From the NCBI RefSeq assembly GCF_013466425.1, contig NZ_CP059165.1:5146001-5210000 (forward strand): 64,000 nt of DNA, given 5' to 3'. The notes below the pieces were generated by a model that saw only the letters and a program-made list of their open reading frames with translations, made no database searches and had not been told where the DNA came from. Both the position numbers and the translations under genes were made by a program. Below, one piece after another: positions 4,136 to 63,837 of the stretch (within the stretch, counting starts at the first letter, position 1; every line of letters begins with the position of its first letter). The stretch comes from Mycobacterium vicinigordonae (lineage in GTDB: Bacteria; Actinomycetota; Actinomycetes; Mycobacteriales; Mycobacteriaceae).

Positions 4136-4174
4136 CGACACGGTTCGACTCACAAGAGGGGACAACAGATCCGG

Positions 4175-4735: not shown

Positions 4736-4771
4736 CCCGGCCACGCGAAACACATTGGGGGTAGCGCGGTT

Positions 4772-5623: not shown

Positions 5624-5639
5624 CAGAGGAGCGGCCAGC

Positions 5640-7142: not shown

Positions 7143-8644
7143 TGAAAGGCGGTCGCGTGATCGAGCCGACGGCACAGGCTCCGCAGGAGGAGTCCCCGGA
7201 GTCGTCGGCTGTGCCCGACGTACCGCAGTCACGGATTGCGCACGCGTTCTCGATCCAGCTCATCTGCCGGTCGCTGGGAATGGTGGCCTCGGTGATCTCG
7301 GTGTCGATGACCGCGCGCTATCTGGGCCCGGGTCGCTACGGGCAGCTGATGGTCGCAGTCGCCTTCATCGGAATGTGGACCAGCATGACCGATCTCGGCA
7401 TTACCACCGTGATCGTGCGGCGCGTCACGTCCGGCCGCGGCGAGCTGGAACGTCTGGTCCGCGTCAACAGCGGCCTTTCCCTGGCGTATTGCATTCCGCT
7501 GGCGGTGATCGCCTCCGTCACCGGCTGGCTGATCTACCGCGACGCTGACGTCCGCGTGATGCTGGTGGTGTTGTCCGGGCAACTGCTGATGTTGACCATG
7601 CGCACCCGGTTCGAACCGGTATTCCTTTCCACGGTGCGCTTTTCCGCGGTCGCCGCCTCCGACGTCGTAGGCCGGTTGGGCACGCTGGCGATGATCAGCT
7701 GGCTGGTGACCACCCACGCCGACGTCGCCTGGTTTGCGGTCGCTCAACTAATTCCGCCGCTCGTGCAACTGGCCATCCAGGGTGCGGCAGCCGCCCAGCA
7801 CATCTCGCTGCGCCCGGTCTTCTCAGCCACCGAATCCATCGACCTGCTACGGGAAAGCCTGCCGCTGATGGGCGTTGCGGTAATCGGAATACTGTATTGG
7901 CGCGCCGACGGGGTGATCCTGTCGCTCCTCAACTCCCACGCCGAAGTCGGCGTGTACGGCTTGGCCTACACGCTCGCATTCAACACCGAGGCGTTGTCGG
8001 TCTTCTTCCAGAAGTCGACGCTGTCGACCGCCACCGGGCTGTATTCCCGCGACGTCGGCGCCTACGTCGCATTCCTGCGCCGCAGTGTGGAACTCATGAG
8101 CTTCCTTGCCTTCCCGGTCGCCGTGGTGGGCACGTTGCTGGCCGGACCGCTGATCGAACTGTTCGGCGACCGCGACTTCGTCGACCGTGGTGCGCCGACG
8201 CTGGCGCTGCTGCTCATCGCTGCCGCGCTGCGGTTCGTCACCGGAACGCTGGGGCAGGGCTTGTTCGCTTGTCACGAACAACAGTTCTTCTTCCGGCTTT
8301 TCGTCGCGACGCTATTCGTGAACGTGGCACTGAACCTCTGCCTGGACGGGCGATTCGGCGCGATCGGCGCCGGAGTCTCGCTGGTATGTACCGAGCTGAG
8401 TGGTTGGATACTGGCCAGCTGGCGGCTGCGCAGCAACTGCGGCTACCGCACTCCGGTGATCTTCTTGGCGCGGCTGCTGGTTCCGACTGTCGCCAGTGTG
8501 GTGGTGGTGCTGGTCCTTTCGGGATATCACGTGGTGTTTGTCCTGACAGCCGCGGCGGCCACGTACCTCGGGATAAACATGGTGGCCGGCCCCCTCAACT
8601 GGTCGATGCTGACCTCGATCTTCCGGAAACAGGTGACCACATGA
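7142..8644 (+). CDS. Polysaccharide flippase, Wzx/MOP family
   Basis: This 500-residue, very hydrophobic protein has about 12-14 predicted helices. It has the N-terminal features of polysaccharide transporters (MATE/MOP superfamily): a SIQLICRSLGMVASVISVSMTARYLGPGRYGQL stretch in two parts, with YLGPGRYG as the recognisable motif. Wzx proteins flip undecaprenyl-diphosphate-linked repeat units to the outer face of the membrane. It follows the initiating transferase with a TGATG overlap and overlaps the next gene by four bases, so translation is probably coupled. A TTG at 7139 is also possible, but ATG at 7142 is simpler. With the Wzy-like and Wzz-like genes on the other strand it makes a Wzx/Wzy system. 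Confidence 0.88.
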   Translation: MKGGRVIEPTAQAPQEESPESSAVPDVPQSRIAHAFSIQLICRSLGMVASVISVSMTARYLGPGRYGQLMVAVAFIGMWTSMTDLGITTVIVRRVTSGRGELERLVRVNSGLSLAYCIPLAVIASVTGWLIYRDADVRVMLVVLSGQLLMLTMRTRFEPVFLSTVRFSAVAASDVVGRLGTLAMISWLVTTHADVAWFAVAQLIPPLVQLAIQGAAAAQHISLRPVFSATESIDLLRESLPLMGVAVIGILYWRADGVILSLLNSHAEVGVYGLAYTLAFNTEALSVFFQKSTLSTATGLYSRDVGAYVAFLRRSVELMSFLAFPVAVVGTLLAGPLIELFGDRDFVDRGAPTLALLLIAAALRFVTGTLGQGLFACHEQQFFFRLFVATLFVNVALNLCLDGRFGAIGAGVSLVCTELSGWILASWRLRSNCGYRTPVIFLARLLVPTVASVVVVLVLSGYHVVFVLTAAAATYLGINMVAGPLNWSMLTSIFRKQVTT

Positions 8645-46620: not shown

Positions 46621-47889
46621 TTACAGCACCCGGTAAGGGTTGGCATCGTCTCGCTCCCCCGCGTTGTGCTGGTTGAGCGCGCGAATGGACACGTCATGAC
46701 CCTCGGCGGCCTGCCGCAACGCACCGACCGTCGCCTTCTCGCGAGGGATGCGGGCAAACGGGTCGAACGAATACCAGTTCATCGCGTTGAGGTGAGTCAT
46801 CTTGTCGACTTCATCCTCCGGCACGCTTTCCGCGGTAAAGACTTCCCAGAGCTGCTCTGGTGCACCCGGCCACATCGAGTCGCCGTGCGGGTAGTCGGCC
46901 TCCCAGGCGATGTTGTCGATGCCGATCTTGCGACGCAGCGCGGTGCCCACCGGATCGCTGATGAAGCAAGCAAGGAAGTGCTCCCGAAACACCTCGGACG
47001 GGAGCTTGCCACCGAAGTCTTGATGGGTCCACGTCGAATGCACCTCGAACGTGCGGTCCGCTCGCTCCAGGAAGTACGGGATCCACCCCGTGCCGCCCTC
47101 GGCCAACGCGATCTTTAGGTCCGGGTAAGCCTTAATTGCTTTGGACCACAACAGATCCGCGGCCGTCTGCACGATGTTCATCGGCTGCACGGTCATCATC
47201 ACGTCTATCGGCGCGTCGGGTGCCGTCATCACCAATTTGCCGGAGGATCCGAAGTGGATGTTCATCACGGTGTCGGTGTCACACAACGCCTTCCACAGTG
47301 GATTCCAGTAAGGATCGTGAAAGCTGGGGTAACCCATCACGGACGGGTTCTCGGTGAAACTCAACGCGTGCACGCCCTTCTTCGACACCCGCCGCACCTC
47401 CTGCGCACACGCCTCGGCATCCCAGATCACCGGCAACGCCATCGGGATGAACCGTCCCGGGTATGCCCCGCACCAATCGTCGATGTGCCAGTCGTTGTAG
47501 GCCCGTACCAATGCCAGCGAGAACTCCGGGTCGTCGGTGGCAAACAGCCGTCCAGCAAATCCCGGAAAGGACGGAAAGCAGATTGAGGCAAGGACGCCAC
47601 CTGCATTCATGTCTTTGACCCGTTCGTCGATCTGGTAGCAACCGGGCCGGATCTCGTCGAGACTCTGCGGTTCTAGGCCGTACTCGTGCTTGGGGCGGCC
47701 GGCCACAGCGTTGAGTGCCGCATTGGGGATCACTCTGTCACGGAATTTCCACACGTCCGAGCCGTCCGGGCTACGCACCAATCGGGGTGCATCGTCCAAA
47801 TACTTTCCCGGCAAATGATTCTCGAACATATTCGGCGGCTCGACCGTGTGATCGTCGACACTGATCAGAATCATGTCATCGCTGTTCAT
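46621..47889 (-). CDS. Amidohydrolase family metal-dependent hydrolase
   Basis: The 422-residue protein belongs to the amidohydrolase_2 (ACMSD-like) group. It begins MILISVDDHTVEPPNMFENH, where the DxH pair (VDDH) at the first strand is the metal-binding motif. NIHFGSSGK contains the His of strand 5, LKIALAEGGTGWIPY supplies the Glu-Gly-Gly region, and WEADYPHGDSMWPG the catalytic Asp of strand 8. Such proteins are decarboxylases or hydrolases of carboxylated substrates and are often found beside P450s. I chose the ATG at 47889 (47892 is equally good), which overlaps the P450 stop by 14 bases; a start at 47979 would overlap by 104 bases. Confidence 0.88.
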   Translation of the reverse strand: MNSDDMILISVDDHTVEPPNMFENHLPGKYLDDAPRLVRSPDGSDVWKFRDRVIPNAALNAVAGRPKHEYGLEPQSLDEIRPGCYQIDERVKDMNAGGVLASICFPSFPGFAGRLFATDDPEFSLALVRAYNDWHIDDWCGAYPGRFIPMALPVIWDAEACAQEVRRVSKKGVHALSFTENPSVMGYPSFHDPYWNPLWKALCDTDTVMNIHFGSSGKLVMTAPDAPIDVMMTVQPMNIVQTAADLLWSKAIKAYPDLKIALAEGGTGWIPYFLERADRTFEVHSTWTHQDFGGKLPSEVFREHFLACFISDPVGTALRRKIGIDNIAWEADYPHGDSMWPGAPEQLWEVFTAESVPEDEVDKMTHLNAMNWYSFDPFARIPREKATVGALRQAAEGHDVSIRALNQHNAGERDDANPYRVL

Positions 47890-49345
47890 CATCACACCTT
47901 CGAAGACGCAATCCGGCCACGATGCGACTGGACCGTAGGGAACTGAGGGCAGGATTCTTATTGGCTCCGCGCTGCTCATGCGGCAACACTTCTTGGCGAC
48001 GGAAAGGAGTCATGCGCAAGCCCTGGGGCTGGACAATCGCCCAAGGCCGTTCACGAACGCGCACTTTCGGCTCTAGTGACAGATGCCAATCACGCAAAAT
48101 TGTGGCGGCGGTGACCAGCATTTCCGTCATGGCGAATGCGTCACCTATGCACTTGTGTTTGCCAATACCGAAGGGGATAAAAGTATGCCGCGGCACCGGC
48201 GCCGAGTGCTCTGCGGCCCAGCGGTCCGGTTTGAATGCAAGGGGATCGTCATACACCGTTGGATCCCGGTGAATCGCGGTAGGGCTAAAAGCTACCTCCA
48301 CCCCGGCCGGAATCTGGAACTGCCCCAAGCGAACCTCCTCGACGGTTCGGCGGGTCAGGATCGAGTTCGGCGTATGCAGACGCAAAGCCTCGTGGACGAC
48401 CCGTTTCAGCAGCTCGAGATCGCGAAGGTTGTCGTAAGTGATGGGCTCGGCGCCCAACTTGTCGTCGAGTTCGCGGACAACCTCGCGCTCGATCTCCGGG
48501 TGCCGGTCCAGTTCATAGAACAGCCAAGACAGTGTGGTGGAGGATGTCTCGGTGGCCGCGAGCAGCAGGGTGAGCACCTCGTCTCGCACCTGGCAGTCGC
48601 TCATCGGTTGGCCGGTGTCCTCGTCGCGGGCCTCCAGCAGCATGGCCAGCGCGCTCTGGCCACCCTGGCCAGAGCAGCGATACGCCGCTACGAGCTCCGC
48701 GACAAGCTCGCGTACATCGGCGATCGCGCGCTGAAACCGGCGGTTGACCGGAATGGGTAACTGGGCCAGCCACTCGAATGGGTAGAACGTCTGCCAGATA
48801 ACGCCCTGGTTGATAGCGATCAGCGCCTGCTCGACCCGGGATACCGCCGATTGGCCGACATCGGTTTGGAAGAGCCCTCGGCACACCACCGCCAGTGCCA
48901 TCGTGTGAATTTCGTGGGCCACTTCGATCGACCCACCCGGGCGCCATGCCCGCGACAACGTCTGCGCGGACTCGGCCATCACCGCCGTATATCGGGCGAT
49001 CTGCTGGCGGTGGAAGGCCGGTTGGAGCAACCGTCGTTGACGGCGGTGAAGTTCTCCGTCCGAAACGAGCAACCCTTGCCCGAGAGCCTTGCCGGCGCGT
49101 TCGAAAAGCGCTCCGCGAGTGAAGGATTCGGACTGCGAGGTCATCATGTCTCGCACCAGATCGTGCGAGGTGACCAGATAGGCGACACGTGGGCCCAGGT
49201 GAATGGCGACGACGTCGCCTACTGACCGAAGCCGCGCCATGTATCCCAGGGGGTCGCGGGCCAGAGCCCCCAGATGCCCCAGGACCGGCAGCCGACCGGG
49301 GGCGACGGGTGGTGTCCGCACCCCGGGTGGGATGGCGACCGTCAT
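47876..49345 (-). CDS. Cytochrome P450
   Basis: The 489-residue P450 has all core motifs. The I-helix is LLAATETSSTTLSW (Ala replaces the usual Gly in AGxET), ExxR is EALR, and the haem loop is FIPFGIGKHKCIGDAFA, with the ligand Cys at residue 399. SILTRRTVEEVRLGQF lies in the substrate-access region. The tail after about residue 450 is longer than usual and overlaps the downstream gene. The substrate is unknown. It forms a transcription unit with the amidohydrolase and is divergent from the LuxR regulator, so it may belong to the terpenoid cluster. Confidence 0.9.
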   Translation of the reverse strand: MTVAIPPGVRTPPVAPGRLPVLGHLGALARDPLGYMARLRSVGDVVAIHLGPRVAYLVTSHDLVRDMMTSQSESFTRGALFERAGKALGQGLLVSDGELHRRQRRLLQPAFHRQQIARYTAVMAESAQTLSRAWRPGGSIEVAHEIHTMALAVVCRGLFQTDVGQSAVSRVEQALIAINQGVIWQTFYPFEWLAQLPIPVNRRFQRAIADVRELVAELVAAYRCSGQGGQSALAMLLEARDEDTGQPMSDCQVRDEVLTLLLAATETSSTTLSWLFYELDRHPEIEREVVRELDDKLGAEPITYDNLRDLELLKRVVHEALRLHTPNSILTRRTVEEVRLGQFQIPAGVEVAFSPTAIHRDPTVYDDPLAFKPDRWAAEHSAPVPRHTFIPFGIGKHKCIGDAFAMTEMLVTAATILRDWHLSLEPKVRVRERPWAIVQPQGLRMTPFRRQEVLPHEQRGANKNPALSSLRSSRIVAGLRLRRCDDEQR

Positions 49346-49983: not shown

Positions 49984-52707
49984 TTGATCGATCGGGTAGA
50001 GGAACTAGGCGCGCTGGAGTCGTTTCTCGATGGCGGCGGCCCCTGCGGAGGCATGTTGCTGCGCGGCGAAGCCGGGGTCGGCAAGTCGATGCTCGTGCAG
50101 GAGCTCTCGGACCGAGCGGCGGCGCGGGGTCGGCGGGTATTGCGCTGCAGCGGGGTCGAAGCGGAGGCCTCTTTCGTGCTGGCCGGGCTCAGCCAGCTGG
50201 TCTACCCGCTGCGAGACTTCATCGGCGACCTTGGGATCGAGGATCAGCGCACGTTACAGACAGTGCTGGGAGTGCCATCCGACAAGGCACCATCCGTTAG
50301 CGGGCTTACCTTTGCTTTGTTAAACCTCTTGACCGCGGCAGGCGACGTCAAGCCGCTGCTGGTGGCTCTAGATGACGCGCATTGGTTCGACGATGTCAGC
50401 GCCCGGGTGATCGCGATGGCCGGCCGACGACTTGATGTCGCGGCGGTGCGCCTAATTGCCGCGTGCCGCGCCGAGGTACCAAACGCCCTGGCCGACGGAG
50501 GATGGCCGCAGCTGATGCTGGGTCCGTTCGACGCGGAGTACTCCGCGAGCTTTCTGGACGAGCTCGGTGTCGACTTGACGCCGACGGCCCGCCTGGCGGT
50601 GCTCGACCAGGCCGCTGGCAATCCGTTGGCCCTGGAGGAACTCTCACGGTGTGCGCTGGAGAACGCGTGGACCCACGAAGCACCGTTGCCGCTGACGCAG
50701 CGCTTGGTCGCAATCTTCGGCGAAAGGCTGAAAAGCCTCGACGCGGCCACCAAGACCGAGCTGCTCCGCGGCGCCCTTGACGGCCCCGCGGCACCCGATG
50801 TGATGTCGGCCCCGCCGCGAAACCGCTATGTGATGGAGGGGATTGAGGCCGCCGTCGAGTCCGGCATCCTGATTATCGACAGCCGCGGCGAAATGGTGTT
50901 CCGGCATCCCCTGGTCCGTGCTGCAGTGATCCAAGCCTCGAGCGCGATACACCGCCGTGCTGCACACGCACTGCTCGCCGACATTTATCCCGATGACCTG
51001 GTACGCCGTGCCGCACATCTTGCCGACGCCACCGTCGGTCCCGATCAAGCGGTGGCCGATACCCTCGCCAAGGCGGCCGAAGTCACGATCCGGCGCGGCG
51101 GTGCACGGCAGGCAATTCGGTCGTACCGTCGCGCCGCCGAATTGTGTGAGGAGTCGCGACGCCGAGAAGAACTGTTGGCAGACGCGGCGTTTGTCGCGTT
51201 GCAAGCCGCGCAACTCGACGAGGCCGAGCGCCTCCTGGCGGATGTAGATCTGGGTGCGCGTGCGTCGAGAACCGCGGTGCTTACCTCGTCATTTATTTCG
51301 TTATACCGCTACGGCGATGTGACCGCGACGCATCGGTACCTCGTCGAACGACTGCAATCGGGTGATGACCTTGACCGCGACTCCCTCACCCGGATGGTCA
51401 ACTTGCTGCTTGCGGCCAACATGTTCGCCGCAGATCCCGTTATGTGGGGTATTACCGATACGCTGGTCGACTCGCTCGCCAGCAGGCTGGGCGAGCTGAC
51501 GCTGATCTACCGGGACGCCTGGGCCGATGTGGCGCGCCGCGGCCATGGCGTGCGGCAACGGCTAGACGCGCAATTAAACCGGCTCCCGGAGCTGGATCCT
51601 TGGGATCTGATGCGGCTTGGCCTGTCGGGCTACTACGTCGACGTGATCGAGGACTTCCGTCCAGCCCTAACTCGCATGGTTGATCGCGAAATCGACGGCG
51701 GTGCGGCTACTATCGCGCTCGCGACGCTCGCGCTGGTCATGGTTTACCAGATAGCGACGGGCCAGTGGGCGGAGGCGCTGCGCTCCGGCCAGCGCGGAGT
51801 GTCCTTATGCAGCGAGCACCACTACGGCCTATTCGGGTGTCAGTTCCGAAGCTATTTGGGCCTGCTCGCCGCCCACCAGGGCAATGTCGAGCGTGCCCGC
51901 GCCTTCGCCGCAGAGGTGCGGGTATGGGCAGAGCCACGGCGGGTGGGCTTCTGTCTGGGCAACGCCCAACAGATCGCGGTCCTGTGCAGTCTCGCCGAAG
52001 GCGATTACGAATCGGCCTACCTACACGCCACCGCAATCACCGCAGTAGGCGAGTTCCCGCCGTATTCGCTGCACGCCCCCCGCACCTTGTTCGATTTAGT
52101 CGAGGCCGCCGTGCATACGGACCGGCTAGCTGAAGCGCGCCAGCACCTGCAGGCAGCCGAACGCCTCAAGTTTGGCTATGCCACACCGCGATTGGCCATC
52201 GCGATCGGCGCTGCGGCGGCCTTGTGCGCCTCGGACGAACTGGCTCCGGCGCTGTTCGAGAAGACATTGCGGCACCCCGATATTGCTGCGTTCCCCTTCG
52301 AGCACGCCCGCGTGCGCCTGGCCTACGGGATGCGCCTTCGCCGGTTACGCCGCTACAGCGTCGCTCGGGTGGTACTGGACGCCGCGGAAGAAATCTTTTC
52401 TGGCCTGGGCGCAGAACCGTGGGCCCAGCGAGCACGCAGTGAACTTCGCGCAGCAGGCACCTCGGTACACCACTCGGCCACCGGGGGGCCCGCTCCGCTC
52501 AGCGCGCAGGAACGCCGCATCGCCGAATTGGCCGCCAAAGGGCTGACCAACAAGGAGATCGCCCGGCAGATGAGTCTCTCGCCACGCACCGTTGGCGCGC
52601 ATTTATACCGGTTATTCCCGAAGCTAGGCGTTACCCGGCGCGCCGGATTGCATGACGCTCTCAAGGCCATCGATGCTGCACCCCACACTATTGGGTCATC
52701 TGACTGA
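49984..52707 (+). CDS. LAL-family (MalT-type) LuxR transcriptional regulator
   Basis: The 907-residue regulator has an N-terminal AAA ATPase domain with Walker A GEAGVGKS (residues 28-35) and Walker B LLVALDDAHWFDD (around 120). A long helical, TPR-like middle follows, and the C-terminal LuxR helix-turn-helix is LTNKEIARQMSLSPRTVGAH (about residues 850-870). LAL regulators often control actinobacterial secondary-metabolite clusters. The start is a TTG at 49984 with GGTGG upstream; no ATG or GTG gives an intact Walker A region. The gene is directly upstream of the terpenoid operon and in the same direction, so it is the probable pathway-specific activator. Confidence 0.9.
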   Translation: MIDRVEELGALESFLDGGGPCGGMLLRGEAGVGKSMLVQELSDRAAARGRRVLRCSGVEAEASFVLAGLSQLVYPLRDFIGDLGIEDQRTLQTVLGVPSDKAPSVSGLTFALLNLLTAAGDVKPLLVALDDAHWFDDVSARVIAMAGRRLDVAAVRLIAACRAEVPNALADGGWPQLMLGPFDAEYSASFLDELGVDLTPTARLAVLDQAAGNPLALEELSRCALENAWTHEAPLPLTQRLVAIFGERLKSLDAATKTELLRGALDGPAAPDVMSAPPRNRYVMEGIEAAVESGILIIDSRGEMVFRHPLVRAAVIQASSAIHRRAAHALLADIYPDDLVRRAAHLADATVGPDQAVADTLAKAAEVTIRRGGARQAIRSYRRAAELCEESRRREELLADAAFVALQAAQLDEAERLLADVDLGARASRTAVLTSSFISLYRYGDVTATHRYLVERLQSGDDLDRDSLTRMVNLLLAANMFAADPVMWGITDTLVDSLASRLGELTLIYRDAWADVARRGHGVRQRLDAQLNRLPELDPWDLMRLGLSGYYVDVIEDFRPALTRMVDREIDGGAATIALATLALVMVYQIATGQWAEALRSGQRGVSLCSEHHYGLFGCQFRSYLGLLAAHQGNVERARAFAAEVRVWAEPRRVGFCLGNAQQIAVLCSLAEGDYESAYLHATAITAVGEFPPYSLHAPRTLFDLVEAAVHTDRLAEARQHLQAAERLKFGYATPRLAIAIGAAAALCASDELAPALFEKTLRHPDIAAFPFEHARVRLAYGMRLRRLRRYSVARVVLDAAEEIFSGLGAEPWAQRARSELRAAGTSVHHSATGGPAPLSAQERRIAELAAKGLTNKEIARQMSLSPRTVGAHLYRLFPKLGVTRRAGLHDALKAIDAAPHTIGSSD

Positions 52708-53101: not shown

Positions 53102-54136
53102 ATGTCAGTTGACGCTACTCGCACAAGTGAGTCGTCTCGTTCTGGCTTAGACGTCTTGCGGCGTGCCCAGTGTGATTGTGACCCGTTCTTACGCGACGCA
53201 ATTGGATCACTCAACGAACCGCTAGCGACGATGGGCGGCTACCACTTCGGATGGTGGGATGCCGATAAGGGAGGTGCGCCAGCCACGTCGGGGAAGTCGC
53301 TTCGGGCGGCCCTCGTTTTTGGCGCCGCGCGGGCTTGTGGATATCGCGGCGACGCCACGCCCGCTGCGGCAGCCGTGGAGCTTATTCACAACTTCACGCT
53401 GCTTCACGACGATGTCATGGACGGTGATTCGACGCGCCGGGGCAGAGCCACCGTGTGGAGGGTATGGGGGGTTAATAACGCAATCCTGCTGGGGGACGCG
53501 CTCCACGCCTTAGCGATACGGATCTTGACTGAATCACTCGGGCAGACTGCGGCTCTGAGCGCGATCGCGCGGCTGGAGCAGACTTGCCTCGACCTATGTG
53601 TAGGCCAACACGAAGACTGCGCCTTTGAGCGGTGCATGAGCGTGACGGTTCCCGACTACCTGCGCATGGCAGCCGGCAAGACCGCCGTGTTGATGGGCTG
53701 CGCGTGCGCATTGGGTGCGCTGAGCGCCGGCGCCGACGCGACCACGGTATGCGCATTAGACCGGTTTGGTTACGAGCTCGGCCTAGCGTTTCAAATCGTC
53801 GACGATCTGATTGGGCTCTGGGGAAACCCCGCTGCGACAGGAAAGCCGGTCGGCAACGATTTGGCCCGCCGAAAGGCGACATTACCGATCGTTGTCGCCC
53901 TTAGCTCTACCGGCGAGGCGGCCGTCGAACTGGCGAAGCTGTACAAGTCCGATCACGCGATGACTCAGCAGGAGATTGTTCGTGCTGCCGACCTGGTGGA
54001 GGCCGCGGGGGGCAGGGAGGCCGCGCAGCGTTACGCAAACGAGCGGATGCACGCCGCCATGACCGCGCTGCCCGACTCAATGAAGTCGAGCGAGCTCGTT
54101 GCGTTGGCGCAGTTGGTTATCGATCGTGACAAGTGA
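53102..54136 (+). CDS. Polyprenyl (likely geranylgeranyl) diphosphate synthase
   Basis: The 344-residue trans-isoprenyl diphosphate synthase has the first Asp-rich motif DDVMD at residues 103-107, followed by GDSTRRGRATVW. The second motif region QIVDDLIGLWG (234-235) lacks the final Asp, as is common in the IdsB-type branch of mycobacteria. The aromatic Phe98 is five residues before the first motif, a position that affects chain length; C15 or C20 product cannot be decided from this alone. It condenses IPP with an allylic diphosphate to make the substrate for the terpene synthase. It is the first gene of the operon (9 bases to the P450). Confidence 0.93.
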   Translation: MSVDATRTSESSRSGLDVLRRAQCDCDPFLRDAIGSLNEPLATMGGYHFGWWDADKGGAPATSGKSLRAALVFGAARACGYRGDATPAAAAVELIHNFTLLHDDVMDGDSTRRGRATVWRVWGVNNAILLGDALHALAIRILTESLGQTAALSAIARLEQTCLDLCVGQHEDCAFERCMSVTVPDYLRMAAGKTAVLMGCACALGALSAGADATTVCALDRFGYELGLAFQIVDDLIGLWGNPAATGKPVGNDLARRKATLPIVVALSSTGEAAVELAKLYKSDHAMTQQEIVRAADLVEAAGGREAAQRYANERMHAAMTALPDSMKSSELVALAQLVIDRDK

Positions 54137-54145
54137 GGCCGACCG

Positions 54146-55600
54146 ATGAGACGTAACCGTGTCCTGGCGCCGCATCAATCTGGCGACGACTCGCCGCTGG
54201 AGTCGAAAGTCGTTGTCCACAAAATTCCCACCGCACCGGCGGCATTGCCGCTGGTCGGCCACAGCGTGCCGTTGCTGCGTGACCCACTGTCGTTCCTGCG
54301 GTCCTTACCCGCCCAAGGCGACCTGGTGCGGATCCGGATCGGTCCCGCAGCCGCCGTGGTGGTGTGCACCCCTGAGCTCACCCACCAAGTCCTTTGCGAC
54401 GACCGCACTTTCGACAAAGGCGGCTTTTTCTTCGACAGGTTCAGAGAAATGCTTGGCGACGGTATTGGCACCTGCCGCCGTAGCCAGCACCGACGGCAGC
54501 GCCGCCTTTTGCAACCGGCTTTCCACTCGCAGCGGTTGCCCGGCTATGCGGAGACCATGGTCACCCAGGTGGATGCGACGGTCGGGAGCTGGCGTAACGG
54601 ACAGATCATCGACGTGCCCACGGAGATGATGACGATCACCAGCCGGACGCTGCTCACCACAATGTTCTCCAATAGTCTGCCTGCCTCCGTGTTGCGGGAC
54701 GCCCTCGACGATGTTGCCGCCATTTTCGAGGCCCTGTATTGGCGGATGCTGACGCCGCCGCCGTTGGATCGGTTGCCCACCCGCGGCAACCGTCGCTACA
54801 ACCGCGCCCTGACCCGGTTGCGTCATGCGGTCGGTTCGGCAATTGCCGACCGACGTGCCGATGGCGGCGATCACCGCGACCTTCTCTCGGCGATGCTGAG
54901 CGCCCGCGATGTCGATAACGGCGACGGCGCCCTGACCGACGCCGAGGTCGTCGACCAGGTCGTGTCGTTTTTCGTTGCGGGCACCGAGACCACTGCTCTT
55001 ACGATCGCCTGGGCGCTGCATTTGCTCACCCAGCACCCTGATATCGAACGACGCCTGCACACTGAGATCGATGCAGCCCTGTCGGGCCGCTCAGCCACTC
55101 ACGCCGACTTGCCCCGGCTAGGGTTGGTCAGCCGCATCGTCACCGAGACCCTCCGCCTCTACCCGCCGGGGTGGATCATTACCCGCCAGGTCAGCGCCGA
55201 TACCTGCCTTGGCGACCATCGTATTTCGGCCGGGGCAACGGTGATCTTCAGCCCATACCTGATCCACCATCGACCTGATCTCTACCCTGACCCCGAGCGC
55301 TTCGACCCCGACCGGTGGCTGCCCGAGCGGGCCAAGGCTGTCCGGCGCGACGCCTTCATCCCCTTCGGCGGCGGTGCGCGCAGGTGCATGGGTGATCAGT
55401 TCGGCATCACCGAGGCCGTACTGGCCTTGGCTACCATCGCCGCCAACTGGCGGATGGAGCCGATTCCTGGCCTGCCTGTCCACACAGCCGCGGAAGCGTC
55501 ATTGCGCCCACGAGGACTCCGCTTGGTTGCCATTGCTCGCACGGATGACCACACCCGCGAGAAAACCGGCGCACCTCAAGCGAGCCGACAAATTGGTTAA
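54146..55600 (+). CDS. Cytochrome P450 of the terpenoid operon
   Basis: The 484-residue P450 has FFVAGTETTALTIAW as the I-helix, ETLR as ExxR, and FIPFGGGARRCMGDQFG as the haem loop with ligand Cys414. The N-terminal region PTAPAALPLVGHSVPLL has the Pro-rich hinge typical of the CYP170/CYP183-like group that oxidises sesqui- and diterpenes in actinobacteria, but it has no membrane anchor. Its position between the prenyl synthase and terpene synthase strongly suggests it oxidises the cyclised product. The start is ATG at 54146, 9 bases after the previous stop. Confidence 0.92.
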   Translation: MRRNRVLAPHQSGDDSPLESKVVVHKIPTAPAALPLVGHSVPLLRDPLSFLRSLPAQGDLVRIRIGPAAAVVVCTPELTHQVLCDDRTFDKGGFFFDRFREMLGDGIGTCRRSQHRRQRRLLQPAFHSQRLPGYAETMVTQVDATVGSWRNGQIIDVPTEMMTITSRTLLTTMFSNSLPASVLRDALDDVAAIFEALYWRMLTPPPLDRLPTRGNRRYNRALTRLRHAVGSAIADRRADGGDHRDLLSAMLSARDVDNGDGALTDAEVVDQVVSFFVAGTETTALTIAWALHLLTQHPDIERRLHTEIDAALSGRSATHADLPRLGLVSRIVTETLRLYPPGWIITRQVSADTCLGDHRISAGATVIFSPYLIHHRPDLYPDPERFDPDRWLPERAKAVRRDAFIPFGGGARRCMGDQFGITEAVLALATIAANWRMEPIPGLPVHTAAEASLRPRGLRLVAIARTDDHTREKTGAPQASRQIG

Positions 55601-55615
55601 CTCGGAGGTGCGCTC

Positions 55616-56611
55616 GTGACCATCACCGCGGATTTCACGCTGCCCGAAATCCATTGCCCGTTTCCGTCCGCCTTCGCCCATTCACGTCACTCGGCCGGAG
55701 CCGAAGTAAAACAGGCAATGTCGACCGTCCTCCACGGCAGCACAGGCAATTCAGTTCGGCGAGCCGTCTCAGGAATACATCTTGTGGACTATGCCGGCCG
55801 CCTTTATCCCGACGTGACGGCGGACGGGCTGCAGACAATCGCCTGGTACTTTTCCTTCTTCTCCCTGCTAGACGACTGGTCCGAACAGCAGGACGGCGAC
55901 GGACACCCGGATACCCCGGGGCTGATCCAGCACCTTCACCGCGCGGCACTTCGGCTGCTCGACTACCCCGACGCGGATAGCAACGATCCCCGCATTCTTG
56001 AACTGGCCCACGTTGTTCGCCCACTCAGTCGGCTTCTCAGTGCCACAGCCAATCCGGACATTGTCGAACGCTTCCGGATCGCTCTCGAAAGAGCCCTGCA
56101 AGCCCGGATTTGGGAACTTGATCACCTAAGAACCGGGAGTGTGCCGTCCTTGGCGGTGTATCCGCGGTTGCGGCGGCAGAGCTCGATGGCCCTTCCCCTG
56201 CTCGAGCTTCATCCGGCGCTCCTGGAACTGCCTACCACCGCGCAGTCGCTGGACCATCCAGCAGTCCGACAGCTGCGCACGATGCTGCTCAACTGCGTGT
56301 TGTGGAGCAATGACTTGTTATCGCTGGCAAGGGAACTACGTGAACGGTCTTGCATGAATCTCGCCCTCGTCTTGCAGGAGGACCTCGGATGCGATCTCCA
56401 ACGAGCCGTGACTGAGGTTGGCCAGATGATCAAACGAGAAGCCCTCGCATACCTTCTCCTCAAGGAGCAGCTCCCTCGCATAGGTATCAGTTCATCGGAC
56501 GAATTAGCTTCCGTCACAGCGCTTCTCGATCGCGAGGAACGGTGGTATGCCGACTCGATCCAATGGCATAAATCCCCGCGCTATCAGGGCGACCCAGTGC
56601 AGGCGCAATGA
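55616..56611 (+). CDS. Class I terpene synthase
   Basis: The 331-residue protein has both metal-binding motifs of class I terpene cyclases. DDWSE is at residues 86-90 within SFFSLLDDWSEQ, and the NSE triad is in SNDLLSLARE (Asn232, Ser236, Glu240). The C-terminal RY pair, which senses diphosphate, is Arg322-Tyr323. Such enzymes ionise a linear prenyl diphosphate, or a bicyclic one from a class II enzyme, and quench the cation. The product cannot be predicted. The start is a GTG at 55616 with GGAGG at 55603-55607. It is 15 bases after the P450 and 55 bases before the membrane protein. Confidence 0.93.
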   Translation: MTITADFTLPEIHCPFPSAFAHSRHSAGAEVKQAMSTVLHGSTGNSVRRAVSGIHLVDYAGRLYPDVTADGLQTIAWYFSFFSLLDDWSEQQDGDGHPDTPGLIQHLHRAALRLLDYPDADSNDPRILELAHVVRPLSRLLSATANPDIVERFRIALERALQARIWELDHLRTGSVPSLAVYPRLRRQSSMALPLLELHPALLELPTTAQSLDHPAVRQLRTMLLNCVLWSNDLLSLARELRERSCMNLALVLQEDLGCDLQRAVTEVGQMIKREALAYLLLKEQLPRIGISSSDELASVTALLDREERWYADSIQWHKSPRYQGDPVQAQ

Positions 56612-56666
56612 CACCGCAACCAAGCACAGCACGGCAAGTCAACCACCCCACGATTGGAGAGCAGCG

Positions 56667-57383
56667 ATGACCATAGGCATCTTGGACGCCACAGACGCGA
56701 GGGATATCCGAGCCGCTGGATGGGCCGGCATTCTGGCCGTCATCCCCGGAATTGTGGCGAACTTTCTAACCGGTACCCCGCAGGAGCCCTATCCCAATTG
56801 GGCCTGGACCGACCAGCATCTGGTCAGCTACTTCGCTGGCCAGCAGTCGGCGGTCGCCGTGCAGCTCCTGCTCACGAATGCGGGTTTCGTCTTACTGATA
56901 TGGGTGGTGGCCGGCGTGAAACGAGCGGTACTCACCGACACCCGGCCGTCGCTACACACCGACCTGATGGTCCCATCCGCCGCGATAACGACGGTCGCGC
57001 TACTGCTAGGCAACGGCCTCTACTGGACCGCGGGGTTACGGGGCTTCCCCCCGCAGTTGGTTCGACTCGCTTTCGACATGCTCATTACCTCCGGATACAT
57101 CGGTGTCATGATCAGTGCGGCGGTCATGCTCTTTAGCGTCGGCATCGCCATGCGGCGCAGCGCGGTCTTCCCCAAATCACTGGCGATCGTCACGCCCTGG
57201 GCGGCCATTCCACTGGCCGCCGGCCCATTCTGCTTGTTGGCCGACTCCGGCCCGGCGGCACCCATCAGCTTCTTGAGCTTGGTCCCGTACTTGGTGCTTT
57301 ACGTCTGGCTCGCGGTCACCGGCGTCGTCATGTTACGACTCACCGCCGCCAACCGCGTCGCACTCAGCCAGTCGACCGACTAG
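56667..57383 (+). CDS. Six-helix membrane protein of the terpenoid operon
   Basis: The 238-residue protein has about six hydrophobic helices, at residues 17-35, 63-84, 101-122, 139-162, 172-192 and 203-225. The first loop contains Pro-rich TPQEPYPNWAWTDQH, with acidic and aromatic residues. I do not recognise the family with confidence; DUF4386-type proteins look broadly alike. Size and helix count are also similar to membrane terpene cyclases of the Pyr4/DmtA1 kind, which are nearby in concept only. A transporter or membrane-bound tailoring enzyme is possible. It sits in the middle of the operon, behind an AGAG site and ATG at 56667. Confidence 0.7.
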   Translation: MTIGILDATDARDIRAAGWAGILAVIPGIVANFLTGTPQEPYPNWAWTDQHLVSYFAGQQSAVAVQLLLTNAGFVLLIWVVAGVKRAVLTDTRPSLHTDLMVPSAAITTVALLLGNGLYWTAGLRGFPPQLVRLAFDMLITSGYIGVMISAAVMLFSVGIAMRRSAVFPKSLAIVTPWAAIPLAAGPFCLLADSGPAAPISFLSLVPYLVLYVWLAVTGVVMLRLTAANRVALSQSTD

Positions 57384-57448
57384 ACGCATACCTATCAACA
57401 GGGTTGGCAACTCAAATCTGCACAGCCACCGACACTTTGGAGACCGGT

Positions 57449-58465
57449 ATGAATACGCCCATTCAACGAGCCATCACATACCTCGCCGAACAGCACGCCA
57501 TCGGTTATCCGAACGCGGTGCACAAGATGGGTTCCTACTCAACCGCGAAGTTTGTTCAACTCGCGGCCGATCACCTTGGCCTCACTGCAGACCAGGTACA
57601 CAAATTCTCCACATTCACGTGTGAGAACAAGGCGTATCACGTGGCGATGATCACGGACGCCCTGCAAGACGCGGTCGAGGCGGGACATTCCCAATGCCAA
57701 GCGATGGTCGATGACAATGTCGACTATCTGCTCGGCTGCCGGGATGAAATATCCTGGCGCTACTTTCCCGGGTTCGATCCACTACCGTACGACGCCGACA
57801 GTCTTGGCCAGATAACACAGGTGCTTGTTCGAGCGGGGCGAGCGGAGCCCGAAATACTAGAGAAAGCATTCGAACTCGCTGCCCTTAACGCATGGCCAGA
57901 CGGCCCCATAAGTACTTTCTTCGCGACCGATCCGAACGACAGAATCACTGTCAACAAGATCTGGGGCCGTGGGCGCGACGACAGCGGACGCGACGCCGAG
58001 GTCGTCGCCAACCTTCTCTACGGGGCCATGCTCTATCAAGATAGAGTGGGCGACTCACCATTAACCCCACTGCTGGAAACAGCAACCAAGTGGCTGACGA
58101 TTCAACAACAGCCGATGGGGTTCTGGCGTGCCGCATGGTATGTCGGCACCTCCTATAGCACTTATATTGTTGTGCGCCAACTTGTTGCGGCGGGTGGCTA
58201 CCAGGAATCAGTTGACCATGCGGTCCGCTTTCTCAGCCAAGCACCTGCGCCCGATCCGCTGAACCGAGCCCTGGCGATGCTGGCGATGACCGCGACGAAC
58301 CGCACACCCGATCGCGAGGACCTAGACCTTCTTCGGGACACCCAATTCCATGATGGATCCTGGGAAGCCATCCCGCTGCTGGACAACCACGCACGAATCT
58401 GGGGAAGCCGCGCAGTCAGCACCGCCATCTGCCTCAAGGCACTGGTGCGGCAGGAGTCTCAGTGA
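57449..58465 (+). CDS. Short alpha-toroid protein (squalene-cyclase/class II cyclase-like)
   Basis: The 338-residue protein looks like a single alpha/alpha barrel of the prenyltransferase/squalene-oxidase repeat fold. Two QW-type repeats end in QQQPMGFW (218-226) and DTQFHDGSW (297-305), and [12 protein letters not shown] is another helix pair. YDADSLGQ (DADS at 115-118) lies where class II cyclases have DxDD. The catalytic Asp of SHC is the third position (Asp117 here), and the fourth is Ser, as in oxidosqualene cyclases, where Cys follows the catalytic Asp. It could be a small class II cyclase or a non-catalytic partner. I chose the ATG at 57449 with GGAG upstream; a TTG at 57404 also opens the frame. 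Its stop overlaps ispH. Confidence 0.75.
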
Positions 58466-59448
58466 CTATTGCCGATTCCCCGCCGCAGCTGCAGTCGCAG
58501 TTATCCACTACCACAGTACTTTTAGCGTCGCCACGCTCATTCTGCGCGGGTGTGCAACGGGCCATCGAAACGGTTGAGCGGGTGCTCGATCGTGCCACGG
58601 GGCCGGTGTACGTGCGCAAGCAGATTGTGCACAACCGCACAGTAGTCGCCGAATTGAGCTCCCGTGGAGCAATTTTCGTCGACGAACTGGACGAGATCCC
58701 CGATCCACCCGCCCTGGGTACCGTCGTGGTCTTCTCCGCTCATGGCGTGTCCCCGGCAGTGCACGCGGCAGCCAAGCAACGCGGACTGGAAGTCGTTGAT
58801 GCCACCTGTCCGCTGGTCACGAAGGTTCATGTGGAAGCCACGCGGTTTGCCGGGCGGGGCGACACGGTGCTGTTGATCGGACACGCTGGACATGAAGAGA
58901 CGGAAGGCACGCTGGGGGTTGCTCCCGAGTCAACCCTATTGGTACAGAACGTAGATGACGTAGCCAGCCTGGATCTCCCCGGAGACGCCCAAGTGTCGTA
59001 CCTGACTCAAACGACGCTAGCGTTGGATGAAACCTCCGACGTCATAGCTGCGCTGCGTCGGCGGTTCTCCAGGCTTAGCGAACCGCCGTCAGAAGACATC
59101 TGTTACGCGACGACCAATCGCCAGCGCGCGGTCGACGCAATCGTCGGGCAATGCGATGTCCTGCTGGTGATCGGGTCACAAAACTCGTCGAACTCGCAGC
59201 GGTTGGTCGAGTTGGCCCGACGGCGCGATACTCCGGCCTACCTAATCGACGGGCCAAGCGATATCGACCCGAGGTGGCTGGATGCAGTGGCAGTGATCGG
59301 CGTCACTGCTGGCGCTTCGGCGCCACCGCAGCTGGTTGAGCAGGTGGTCGACGCACTGCGGCAGCGCGGGCCGATTGATGTGGTCGAAGACCCGGTGACG
59401 ACGGAATCCGTGCGGTTCAACCTGCCGCGAAAGGTGCGCGCGCTGTGA
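58462..59448 (+). CDS. ispH: 4-hydroxy-3-methylbut-2-enyl diphosphate reductase (second copy)
   Basis: The 328-residue protein has the three cluster-binding Cys in RSFCAGV (about residue 28), DATCPLVT and [21 protein letters not shown] carries the substrate-binding His, [13 protein letters not shown] the catalytic Glu, and [12 protein letters not shown] the Ser/Asn site. IspH makes IPP and DMAPP from HMBPP. Mycobacteria normally have a housekeeping ispH elsewhere, so this is probably an additional copy, like M. tuberculosis lytB1. The start is a GTG overlapping the previous stop, and the gene overlaps dxs by four bases. Confidence 0.95.
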
Positions 59449-61304
59449 CCATTGCCATGCGGGCCGATCAGCCCGACCTACTGTCATTCATCCGGGGTCC
59501 GCAGGATGTCCAAGCTCTGTCTGATGACCAATTGCCGTTGTTGGCTGCGCAGATACGCCGGCGCATGATTGACACGGTTACGAGCACCGGGGGTCACCTC
59601 GGCGCGGGGCTAGGTACTGTCGAACTAACCATCGCGCTGCACCGCGTGTTTTGCTCCCCGCGCGACATTGTTGTGTTCGATACCGGACATCAAACGTACC
59701 CGCACAAACTACTGACCGGCCGCATCAATCAGTTCGACACCCTGCGCCAACCCGCCGGGTTGTCGGGATATCCAAGTCGCAGCGAATCAGACCATGACTG
59801 GGTCGAAAACTCACATGCATCAGTAAGTTTGGCATGGGTCGACGGTATCGCCAGAGCACTGAGCCTGCAGGGTCGGCATGATCGCCATGTCGTAGCTGTC
59901 ATTGGCGATGGGGCCCTTACCGGCGGAGTCGCGTGGGAGGGTCTGAACAATCTGGGCGGCACCGACCGCCCGGCGATCATTGTGCTCAACGACAACGGAC
60001 GGTCCTATGATCCCACGATCGGCGCTGTCGCCGCGCACCTCGAGGAACTCCGCCGCGGTGCTAGCACAGTTCCAAATCTGTTCGAAGTCTTAGGGTTTTC
60101 GTATATCGGCCCGGTAGACGGTCACCACATCGAATCGATTTGCGTGGCGCTACGGCAAGCGGCCGCACTGAACCAGCCGGTCGTCGTCCACGCGGTCACC
60201 GCCAAAGGGCGCGGGTATCCACCGGCCGAAGCGGATGAAGACGACCGCATGCATGCCTGCGGTGTAGTCGATGTAGCGACCGGCCGGCCCACCAAGAAGA
60301 GCCCACCGACCTGGACTGACATATTCGAGCAAGAGCTCGTGCGCATCGCGGACGAACGGCCAGAGGTCGTCGGAATGACAGCCGCCATGCGCCTGCCCGC
60401 CGGCCTTGGAGCGCTATCACGCAAGTACCCCGAGCGAGTATTCGACTCGGGCATTGCCGAACAACACCTACTGGCCTGTGCCGCAGGCCTGGCAAGTGCG
60501 GGGGCACATCCTGTGGTGACGCTCTATTCGACCTTCCTGAATCGAGCCTTCGACCAGTTGATGTTCGATGTCGGACTGCATCGCCTGCCCGTCACGCTAG
60601 TCCTTGACAGAGCCGGTATTACCGGCCCGGACGGAGCAAGCCATCACGGAATGTGGGATTTGGCGCTGCTGGCCACGGTGCCTGGAATGCGCGTCGCCTG
60701 CCCACGTGACGAGCTGAGACTGCGCCAACAGCTCTCCGCAGCAGTTGGACTGACGTCACCAAATGCTGTGCGCTATCCGAAAGGATTACCCGACAAGGAT
60801 ATTCCAGCAATCGACCACATCGCTGGGGTCGATGTCCTTTACCTCAGCGGGACATCCCGTCGTGACGTGCTGCTGATCGCGGTAGGTGCGATGGCGCGAC
60901 CATGCCTCGACGCCGCGCAGTGCCTCAGTGCGGCGGGCGCCGGTGTGACCGTCGTCGACCCAGGTTGGGTCTGGCCACCCAACCCCGTCCTGATCGAGTT
61001 GGCCAGCCAGCATCGGATCACCGTCACAGTCGAGGATGGAGTCGCCGAAGCGGGGATCGGCACCCGAATGCGCCACCAAATCAAGCAGCTGAGTCCCCAA
61101 GCACATATCTACAGCCTGGGCTTGCCGACGGACTACATCGCACACGCCGCCCGCAACCAGATCCTCGACGAGTTCGGCATGTCCGGAACCGTAATCGGTG
61201 CAAAGTGCCGGTCATTGCTCGAAGCGGCCAGCACAGTTCCGACGGTCGATCGGTGCGCCTATCAGCGTGATCTAGTCATGGGCGTCCCACCGGAGACACG
61301 ATGA
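59445..61304 (+). CDS. dxs: 1-deoxy-D-xylulose-5-phosphate synthase (second copy)
   Basis: The 619-residue thiamine-diphosphate enzyme has [31 protein letters not shown] (quoted in part as GGHLGAGLG) and [13 protein letters not shown] for cofactor binding. GIAEQH carries the catalytic Glu, and [11 protein letters not shown] and [15 protein letters not shown] complete the DXS signatures. The usual GHSSTSIS segment is ENSHASVS here. DXS is the first and flux-controlling MEP step, using pyruvate and glyceraldehyde-3-phosphate. As with M. tuberculosis dxs2, it is probably an additional copy that raises precursor supply for the cluster. The GTG start and the stop overlap both neighbours by four bases. 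Confidence 0.95.
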
Positions 61305-62488
61305 CTGTCGCGCTCGGTATCCCCGCACCGCCAGTTCCGACGTTGGCCCCGCGACGTCCGACCCGCCAACTGATGGTCGGCAACCAGGGCATCGGAAGCG
61401 ATTATCCCGTTGCGGTGCAATCGATGACGACGACAAAGACCCATTGTGTGAACTCGACCCTGCAACAGATCGCCGAGCTGACAGCAGCGGGCTGCGACAT
61501 CGTGCGAGTGGCGTGCCCACGTCAAGAGGACGCCGACGCGCTACCTCAGATCGCCAAGCGAAGTCCTATCCCGGTAATCGCGGATATCCATTTCCAACCC
61601 AAGTACATCTTCGCCGCGATTGCCGCTGGGTGTGCCGCTGTCCGGGTAAACCCAGGCAACATAAAAGAATTCGACGGCCGGGTGGGAGAGGTGGCCAAGG
61701 CTGCGGGTGACGCCGGCATCCCGATCCGCATCGGAGTCAATGCCGGCTCATTGGACCGGCGGTTCATCCAGAGGTACGGCAAGGCCACCCCAGAGGCGCT
61801 AGTGGACAGCGCACTCTGGGAGGCATCCCTGTTTGAAGAACACGGTTTTGGAGATATCAAGATCAGCGTGAAACACCATGATCCAGTCATCATGGTGGCC
61901 GCGTACCAGCTACTGGCCGCACAGTGTGACTATCCGCTTCACCTCGGTGTCACCGAAGCCGGTCCCGCATTCCAGGGCACCATCAAGTCAGCAGTCGCTT
62001 TCGGCGCCTTGCTATCCGGGGGCATCGGCGACACCATCCGGGTGTCGCTGTCGGCGCCGCCAGTCGAAGAGGTCAAGGTTGGCAATCAAATCCTCGAATC
62101 ACTCAACTTGCGGCCGCGATCGCTGGAGATCGTGTCGTGTCCGGCCTGTGGACGTGCGCAGGTCGACGTGTACAGATTGGCCAATGAAGTCAGCGCTGGC
62201 CTTGACGGGCTTGGGATTCCGCTGCGGGTTGCAGTGATGGGTTGCGTAGTTAACGGTCCTGGCGAGGCACGTGAGGCGGACCTGGGTGTGGCCTCCGGAA
62301 ACGGCAAAGGACAGATCTTTGTCAAGGGTGAGGTGATTAAAACCGTACCCGAGTCACAGATTGTGGAGACGTTGATTGCGGAGGCTTTGCGAATCGCAGA
62401 AGAGCAGGGATATGTCATTCCGTCGGCGGACGTCAGTGTGCAGGGTGTCCCGATCCCCGCTGCGGTAATCAGGGACGAAGCCGTTTGA
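61301..62488 (+). CDS. ispG: 4-hydroxy-3-methylbut-2-en-1-yl diphosphate synthase (second copy)
   Basis: The 395-residue protein has [14 protein letters not shown] at the TIM-barrel start, [20 protein letters not shown], and the iron-sulphur domain motifs SCPACGR and [14 protein letters not shown]. These give the three Cys and one Glu ligands of the [4Fe-4S] cluster. IspG reduces MEcPP to HMBPP, the substrate of IspH. The presence of ispG here is not part of the M. tuberculosis tuberculosinol region as I remember it. The ATG overlaps the dxs stop by four bases. Confidence 0.95.
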
Positions 62489-62538
62489 CGTTCGAATAGT
62501 TCTCGGATTACTGGTTTTCGGGTTTGAGGGAGGTGTGA

Positions 62539-63837
62539 ATGGACAGCAACGAACGCTACGTTTCTCGGCTGGCGCCGTTGACCCTGAGAGTGAAGGGCAT
62601 GGCCAGCCCACAGCCCGTGTACCACCAGAAGGCCAAGGATGTGCGGGCCGAACGGGCCGAGGCGGGGGTGGTGACGTTGTACCGGCGCGACGACGTGGTC
62701 CGGATCAACCGTCATCCGGCCGTGCTGGGCGCGGGGGGTCGTGGCGGGAACTTCGGCAATGATAATCCCTTAATTCCGTTGGAGATCGACGGCGAGGACC
62801 ATAAGAAGTGGCGGCAGCTGCTGGACCCGCTCTTTGCGCCCAAGCCGATGGCACGGTTGGAAGGCTTGGTTCGCAAGCGCGCTGCAGAACTGGTAGACGG
62901 CTTTGCCGACGCGGGTACCGCCGAGTTGTACGAGGACTACTGCGTGCCACTGCCATGTTTGACGTTTCTGGAATTCGTCGGCGCCCCGGCCGAGGACATT
63001 GAATTCTTCGTACATTTCAAAGATGGCGTGTTGCATCCGCAAGGGAACACTCGCGACGAGATTCGGGCCAGCCAGGCCGCCTCGGGAGCCACGCTAGTCG
63101 ACTACTTCAGCAAGTTCTTTACCCAACGGCGAGCCGAAGGTGTTCGGGGTGACGATGTCCTTGCGGTGTTGCTGCGCTCGCAGATCGACGGTCGACCGCT
63201 TACCGATGCCGAACTACTGAACATCATCTACCTGCTGATGTTTGCCGGCCTGGACACCGTTACCGCGTCCATGTCGTGTCTACTAGCGTGGCTGGGCCAA
63301 CACCCGCACGAGTGCCGCCGGTTGGCCGAAGACCCCGCCCGAATCCCGGCTGCGGTCGAAGAACTAATGCGCCACCAATCACCGGCACCTAGCAGCATCC
63401 GTTACGCCACAGCGGATATCGACCTCGGCGACGGCCTAACGATCCAAGCCGGAGAAGCGATCCACGTCAGCTGGGCCGCCGCCAACGTCGACCCGACCGC
63501 GTATCCCGATCCCTTGCGGGTGGACTTCGAACGCGGGCGATTCCACCACCTCGCCTTTGGCAGCGGGGTCCACCGCTGCCTTGGTTCGCATCTGGCTCGG
63601 CTCGAATTGCGAGTCGCGCTCGAGGAGCTCTTGGCTCGCATCCCCGATTACGCAGTGGATACGGATGCGCTGGTCTACGACAACGTGTCTGTGCGCACCG
63701 TGCAACAACTGCACATCGCCTTCGACACCAACGCCGGGATCGCCGCATCCGGAGCCGGGGCTGCGTCGAACAAGACGGGGCTTGCCGCCAGCCACTGCCG
63801 AAGTCCAACAGATTCAGTCCATAGTCGTCATAGGTAG
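62539..63837 (+). CDS. Cytochrome P450, second of the terpenoid operon
   Basis: The 432-residue P450 has LLMFAGLDTVTAS as the I-helix (AGLDT), EELMRH as ExxR, and HLAFGSGVHRCLGSHLARLE as the haem loop, with ligand Cys347. It is different in sequence type from the P450 at 54146: this one is the class I soluble bacterial kind common in mycobacteria. The tail after about residue 400 is Ala/Gly-rich and probably disordered. It is 50 bases after ispG and probably the last gene of the operon. A later oxidation of the terpene is the most likely role. The start is ATG at 62539, with GGGAGG upstream. Confidence 0.9.
   Translation: MDSNERYVSRLAPLTLRVKGMASPQPVYHQKAKDVRAERAEAGVVTLYRRDDVVRINRHPAVLGAGGRGGNFGNDNPLIPLEIDGEDHKKWRQLLDPLFAPKPMARLEGLVRKRAAELVDGFADAGTAELYEDYCVPLPCLTFLEFVGAPAEDIEFFVHFKDGVLHPQGNTRDEIRASQAASGATLVDYFSKFFTQRRAEGVRGDDVLAVLLRSQIDGRPLTDAELLNIIYLLMFAGLDTVTASMSCLLAWLGQHPHECRRLAEDPARIPAAVEELMRHQSPAPSSIRYATADIDLGDGLTIQAGEAIHVSWAAANVDPTAYPDPLRVDFERGRFHHLAFGSGVHRCLGSHLARLELRVALEELLARIPDYAVDTDALVYDNVSVRTVQQLHIAFDTNAGIAASGAGAASNKTGLAASHCRSPTDSVHSRHR

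Follow-up and report, generated by a model that had tools for sequence, protein, structure and literature searches.

The described locus closest to the one reported here is the tuberculosinol (isotuberculosinol, 1-TbAd) operon, Rv3377c-Rv3383c, in which precursor genes adjoin those for one class II and one class I cyclase. According to the available part of one report, the precursor genes of that operon appear redundant and dxs2 is an inactive pseudogene (PMC3470408). Excerpts from other articles mention a mevalonate operon with IdsB2 in Mycobacterium marinum and a deletable LytB1 (PMC12632256), non-canonical synthases encoded near prenyl synthases, one of them from M. marinum (PMC11234867), and a terpene nucleoside locus (PMC11476799). 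Here, we analyzed a stretch of 64,000 nucleotides of Mycobacterium vicinigordonae (GCF_013466425.1, NZ_CP059165.1, positions 5,146,001 to 5,210,000, forward strand), referred to below as the window. By sequence, nine consecutive plus-strand genes at 53102-63837 form a terpenoid operon that includes copies of DXS, IspG, and IspH, enzymes of the methylerythritol phosphate (MEP) pathway. Both the gene run and the three enzymes had been proposed in a sequence-only reading of the window and are borne out by family matches. We consider it likely that the cluster is biosynthetic and directs the formation of a heavily oxidized diterpenoid derived from geranylgeranyl diphosphate (GGPP).

Seven of the nine products were named by Pfam or NCBIfam. 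The operon consists of the following genes:

53102..54136, plus strand: IdsB-type GGPP synthase (NCBIfam NF045549, 607.9 bits versus a cut-off of 475; PF00348)
54146..55600, plus strand: cytochrome P450 a (PF00067; heme-binding motif FGGGARRCMG)
55616..56611, plus strand: class I terpene synthase (PF19086, E = 1.7e-29)
56667..57383, plus strand: membrane protein of about seven helices, no assigned family (no family match)
57404..58465, plus strand: single alpha-toroid protein, probable monodomain class II terpene cyclase (model and structure matches)
58462..59448, plus strand: IspH, LytB1-type (PF02401; landmark motifs of Escherichia coli IspH present)
59445..61304, plus strand: DXS (TIGR00204, 516 bits versus 465.95)
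61301..62488, plus strand: IspG, or GcpE (PF04551; cysteine motifs present)
62539..63837, plus strand: cytochrome P450 b (PF00067; heme-binding motif FGSGVHRCLG)

Successive genes are spaced by 9, 15, 55, 20, -4, -4, -4, and 50 bases, figures which assume that the membrane protein gene starts at ATG 56667. This agrees with the proposed three four-base overlaps, and no gap is longer than 55 bases. The idsB frame could be extended upstream to ATG 52961; judged by eye, the start at 53102 has the better ribosome-binding site. Scans for promoters (1 match versus a shuffled mean of 3.3) and terminators (8 versus 9.0) stayed at chance level or below. The membrane protein, which matched no Pfam or NCBIfam family, has six homologues besides itself in the protein database, and both of the named ones are from Mycobacterium. 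A fold search with its weak model (predicted local distance difference test [pLDDT] of 66.5) returned no match at E ≤0.001 among 651 matches with E ≤10.

The GGPP-synthase equivalog model is matched above its cut-off by IdsB, which supports a GGPP-derived product. As in the tuberculosinol operon, idsB, ispH, and dxs follow each other in the same order, and their products are closest to that operon by sequence. When 297 Mycobacterium genomes were searched with IspH, strong matches (E ≤1e-100) occurred in six, namely the three carriers of the present cluster and three others, G029, G064, and G105. IdsB adjoins IspH in all of the latter three, and DXS is also present in G029 and G105, whereas G064 has no cassette-type DXS. 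The window IdsB is 63 to 65% identical to its counterparts in these three loci versus at most 42% (over 104 residues) to paralogues in its own genome. The corresponding values are 75 to 77% versus at most 53% for IspH and, in G029 and G105, 67 to 70% versus at most 51% for DXS. In a tree of 25 DXS sequences, the five cassette copies formed one clade (100/100) separate from 19 housekeeping rows; the Streptomyces row was long-branched and its position is unsure. Rows of genome G009, one DXS (L075) and two IspG fragments (L059 and L063), were dropped from the trees.

The cyclase genes accompanying these precursor genes differ between loci. G029 carries the tuberculosinol cyclase pair (against the solved proteins, E = 2e-259 for Rv3377c and 7.7e-145 for Rv3378c), and in G105, relatives of both tuberculosinol cyclases at about 29% identity lie downstream of DXS. 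G064 has a PF19086 synthase next to IspH (L038:8404-9495, minus strand), a further cyclase module that is only 22% identical to the window synthase. The Rv3377c/Rv3378c-type pair of G029 found no tblastn match at E 1e-2 in the window, its continuation L006, or the stretches L014 and L015. The window has a monodomain toroid and a PF19086 synthase in place of this pair, with four genes inserted between IdsB and IspH, and adds IspG, P450s, a membrane protein, a regulator, and an oxidizing flank. The resemblance to Rv3377c-Rv3383c suggested earlier is therefore one of homology for IdsB, IspH, and DXS and does not extend to the cyclases. That these three proteins are closest to the tuberculosinol-type operon and not to the copies in their own genome shows common ancestry and means that a shared precursor cassette carries different cyclases. 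All or part of this cassette occurs together with four distinct sets of cyclases. As a separate observation, a 45-residue stretch behind DXS in G105 (L037:12183-12317) matches the beginning of the Rv3378c-type cyclase at 60% identity and is likely a relic.

The genome of M. vicinigordonae (6,266,765 bases, one contig) contains one further DXS, matched at full length, one further IspG, and one further IspH, which rules out that the operon holds the only copies of these genes; polyprenyl-synthase matches number five in total. The operon DXS contains the stretches GGHLG, GDGALTGG, IAEQH, and GPDGASHHG, and the landmark motifs of IspH and the cysteine motifs of IspG are present as well. Given the functions that we take these motifs to have, all three enzymes look able to work. 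In the alignment, the operon DXS is short at a loop position where the crystal constructs 8ogh and 7a9h have a glycine linker, which presumably replaces a cut-out loop. By eye, most of the loop at this position is also missing from the cassette-type DXS of L014, L015, L037 (G105), and L039 (G029).

IspG alone resembles the copy in its own genome, being 88% identical to the housekeeping protein and 79.5% identical to that of a Streptomyces hopanoid cluster. In a tree of 24 IspG rows, the three cluster copies grouped together (93/91) among Mycobacterium sequences, although resolution of the tree was poor, with 5 of 21 inner branches well supported. This protein has had a history different from that of IdsB, IspH, and DXS. 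Among 20 chosen genomes, six of which had been selected from the toroid and IspH survey results, a second IspG was present in three, exactly the carriers of the cluster, and a second DXS in five; the two IspG matches in G009 are adjacent fragments of one gene. The hopanoid (hpn) cluster on plasmid p1 of Streptomyces fungicidicus (L021) is comparable in that a prenyl synthase gene is accompanied by cluster copies of ispG and dxs. It differs in its squalene/hopene genes, and its DXS and IdsB are 49 and 42% identical to those of the window. No hopanoid cyclase (PF13243) was matched in the M. vicinigordonae genome, while the same search was positive in 2 of 14 control genomes.

The product of 57404..58465 had been described from sequence as a short toroid; a toroid it is, and the description can be extended to a probable monodomain class II terpene cyclase. 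An AlphaFold model (pLDDT, 86.6; predicted template modeling score, 0.88) predicted a single alpha-toroid, in agreement with the 340 to 370 residues or so expected of the class. The best Protein Data Bank matches of the model were monodomain class II cyclases, with 17 to 22% identity over the aligned part. A DADS motif at residues 130 to 133 aligns to the DADS of 8pak and 8paj, and a weak match to the squalene-cyclase model TIGR01787 (E = 4e-5) is far below its cut-off. An alternative start, ATG 57449, lies close to the start of many homologues. The described enzymes of this type, MstE, the Cystobacter/Archangium proteins 8pak and 8paj, and 6ij1 of Actinoplanes, are distant at this level of identity, and, unlike them, the window toroid is accompanied by a class I synthase and MEP genes.

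At such low identity to solved cyclases, the toroid might instead be a noncatalytic partner or carrier for a terpenoid, and at the last position of the canonical DxDD motif, the 37 homologues covering it have Ser (23), Thr (11), or Asp (3). We regard this as rather improbable. DxD is retained in all 37 covering homologues (2 of 39 do not cover it), the closest folds are monodomain class II cyclases, and the accessible part of a report on AstC describes a DxDT variant as catalytic (PMC13244436). A role as an EutC-like tailoring protein was rejected, EutC resembling retinaldehyde-binding protein according to an excerpt of its description (PMC11574762).

Outside mycobacteria, the named toroids of Streptomyces, Micromonospora, and Lentzea are 55 to 64% identical to that of the window. 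A P450 gene directly precedes the toroid gene in all three Streptomyces/Micromonospora loci, and a luciferase-like monooxygenase follows it in two of the three, the contig of the third ending there. In Streptomyces sp. CB02959 (L019), a single open frame upstream of the toroid (3978-7157) encodes both DXS and IspG domains, and a prenyl synthase gene follows; this locus also encodes a B12 radical SAM protein. The window synthase found no match in the Streptomyces/Micromonospora loci, and no class I synthase was recognized among the frames scanned, which were some of those present and among which a very divergent one could escape. A toroid with DXS-IspG, prenyl synthase, and P450 genes nearby, but no class I synthase among the scanned frames, is what would be expected of a cyclase in its own right.

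The class I terpene synthase scored 103.4 bits with PF19086 (cut-off, 23.7) and is the single member of this family in its genome. In an alignment of 11 rows, its own included, the NDxxSxxxE triad and a C-terminal RY were found in every row. The acidic motif D86-[D/E] was likewise kept throughout, its second Asp being Glu in 9 of the 11, and the following Ser-Glu was kept in 10. The labdane-related diterpene synthase 6oh6 (E = 6e-12) is among its solved relatives within the best 60 of 68 matches.

Several observations weigh against the GGPP-derived diterpenoid, which is predicted from gene content and sequence. Among the best 60 of 68 matches, most of the closest solved proteins to the synthase bear the names of sesquiterpene synthases, which fits farnesyl diphosphate (FPP) as well as GGPP, and the DXS part near the CB02959 toroid looks incomplete or broken. 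The window toroid has no Pfam family match and was missed by the PF13243 search of its own genome. Its substrate is not fixed by precedent either, as the available parts of two reports assign other substrates to MstE and AsDMS (PMC13244436, PMC12365925). The class I enzyme could accordingly be a sesquiterpene synthase acting on housekeeping FPP, with the toroid acting late on a P450-oxidized or otherwise head-grouped terpenoid, much as a prenylated aromatic acid serves as the substrate of MstE, and the product would be a sesqui- or mixed terpenoid. Muurolol, cubebol, pentalenene, and epi-isozizaene synthases among the best 60 of 68 solved matches are in line with this, as are NCBIfam near-matches that are mostly sesquiterpene synthases, all below cut-off, and the P450 immediately preceding the toroid in each of the Streptomyces/Micromonospora loci. 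However, an IdsB-type GGPP synthase is encoded in the operon itself, a feature shared with the diterpenoid tuberculosinol-type operon, and although the sequence does not settle substrate length, we consider the FPP-based route unlikely.

The comparison of gene neighborhoods recommended earlier showed that a ten-gene order, from a LuxR-type regulator gene to P450 b, is the same in M. szulgai and M. angelicum, with 65 to 91% amino acid identity. The ratio of nonsynonymous to synonymous substitution rates was 0.07 to 0.23 for all ten genes, which are under purifying selection. A chance run of genes is ruled out by this order, kept across three species, and by the low ratios. Searches with one genome per species, which could overlook carriers recorded solely as particular strains, found the toroid in 3 of 396 Mycobacterium genomes; the class I synthase was present in the identical three. 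Among 394 genomes of the class, the sole toroid match was the window's own, though homologues exist in Streptomyces, Micromonospora, and Lentzea. A search of named records, from which those very near the window's genome may be left out, gave five toroid loci, in M. szulgai, M. angelicum, Streptomyces pathocidini, Streptomyces sp. CB02959, and Micromonospora matsumotoense. Of 39 toroid homologues in the protein database, those with a named source belong to Mycobacterium (including M. pseudoshottsii), Streptomyces, Micromonospora, and Lentzea. The class I synthase had at least 10 homologues there besides itself, counted among the scored candidates, those sharing most words.

A toroid of M. pseudoshottsii (P0002) and a Mycobacterium membrane protein (P0055), apparently from one source, were listed with no synthase homologue alongside, and the cluster may be damaged or diverged there. 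A location on a known plasmid was rejected: one partial match covered 9% of the query and corresponded to the ispG of the hopanoid cluster, and the protein matches of toroid and synthase (1 and 22 records) were all below 60% identity.

The earlier reading covered nine genes, and the conserved cluster reaches beyond them and beyond the window end. Three further members lie upstream within the window:

46621..47979, minus strand: amidohydrolase (PF04909; 78 to 80% identical in the M. szulgai and M. angelicum clusters)
47876..49345, minus strand: cytochrome P450 c, divergent to the regulator (Pfam/NCBIfam; an about 80% identical gene in the same place in M. szulgai and M. angelicum)
49984..52707, plus strand: AAA/LuxR-type (GerE) regulator (PF13191, PF00196; 82% identical directly upstream of the operon in both other species)

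The regulator gene ends 394 bases upstream of the operon; by longest frames, this gap is 36 bases in M. szulgai and 84 in M. angelicum. Operon neighbors also match in the nucleotide comparison with M. szulgai. P450 c, the amidohydrolase, two mycofactocin-coupled short-chain dehydrogenases/reductases (SDRs; TIGR03971), a further SDR, P450 d, and an aldehyde dehydrogenase have counterparts of 78 to 92% identity in both species. They flank both sides of the operon in M. vicinigordonae, the right-hand ones beyond the window end (L006, whose base 1 is window base 63000), and lie together on its left in M. szulgai and M. angelicum. Also located within the extended cluster, at L006:792-3505 and 3516-4133, are genes for an ABC1-type atypical kinase, a fifth P450, and a carboxymuconolactone-decarboxylase-like protein, for which the stretches compared from the other two species gave no match. 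The cluster has a G+C content of 62% versus 66 to 67% in its flanks, as of a block of foreign or distinct origin.

P450s, SDRs, aldehyde dehydrogenases, and amidohydrolases are also typical of catabolic operons. With these families present, and a gene resembling enoyl-CoA hydratase by eye in the flank of the other species, the cluster, or at least its flanks, could serve terpenoid breakdown. The combination, within one operon, of a prenyl synthase with two cyclase-type proteins and three MEP enzymes is biosynthetic, and we judge breakdown to be very improbable.

For the likely biosynthetic function, we propose the following pathway. DXS at the entry and IspG and IspH at the two iron-sulfur steps would raise flux through the MEP pathway, its middle enzymes being supplied by the housekeeping set, and IdsB would make GGPP, the presumed substrate of cyclization. 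Asp132 in the DADS motif of the toroid is predicted to protonate a terminal double bond, and the class I synthase would ionize the diphosphate. P450s a to d, the three SDRs, two of them mycofactocin-coupled, and the aldehyde dehydrogenase may then oxidize the product stepwise. The membrane protein may anchor or export it, and the LuxR-type regulator would control the operon. Strong family matches underlie the MEP and IdsB steps, fold and motif the cyclization, and gene content the remainder. Labdane-type pathways are the general model for the order of the two cyclases assumed here, which is a guess by analogy.

More tentatively, and with somewhat less than even confidence, we suggest that GGPP is converted to a cyclic diterpene by the successive action of a monodomain class II cyclase and a class I synthase, a route that takes two enzymes and dispenses with the customary beta-gamma class II enzyme. 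Mycobacteria would exchange such cyclase modules on a single ancestral IdsB-IspH-DXS cassette, and the tuberculosinol operon would be one of at least four variants of a modular terpenoid system whose lipid products differ and are mostly undescribed. Consistent with the earlier statement that no product is known for this arrangement, titles and abstract beginnings in the open-access literature, which largely leave subscription papers and preprints uncovered, yielded no description of the cluster or its product.

Tuberculosinyladenosine is a well-studied mycobacterial terpenoid. In the cluster described here, carried by other mycobacteria, the precursor cassette of its operon looks intact, is accompanied by IspG, and is combined with different cyclases and an extended set of oxidation enzymes. 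It would represent a natural case in which control of MEP flux is packaged with a product pathway, and it offers a candidate pairing of a monodomain class II cyclase with a class I synthase. These findings point to a wider family of mycobacterial diterpenoids.

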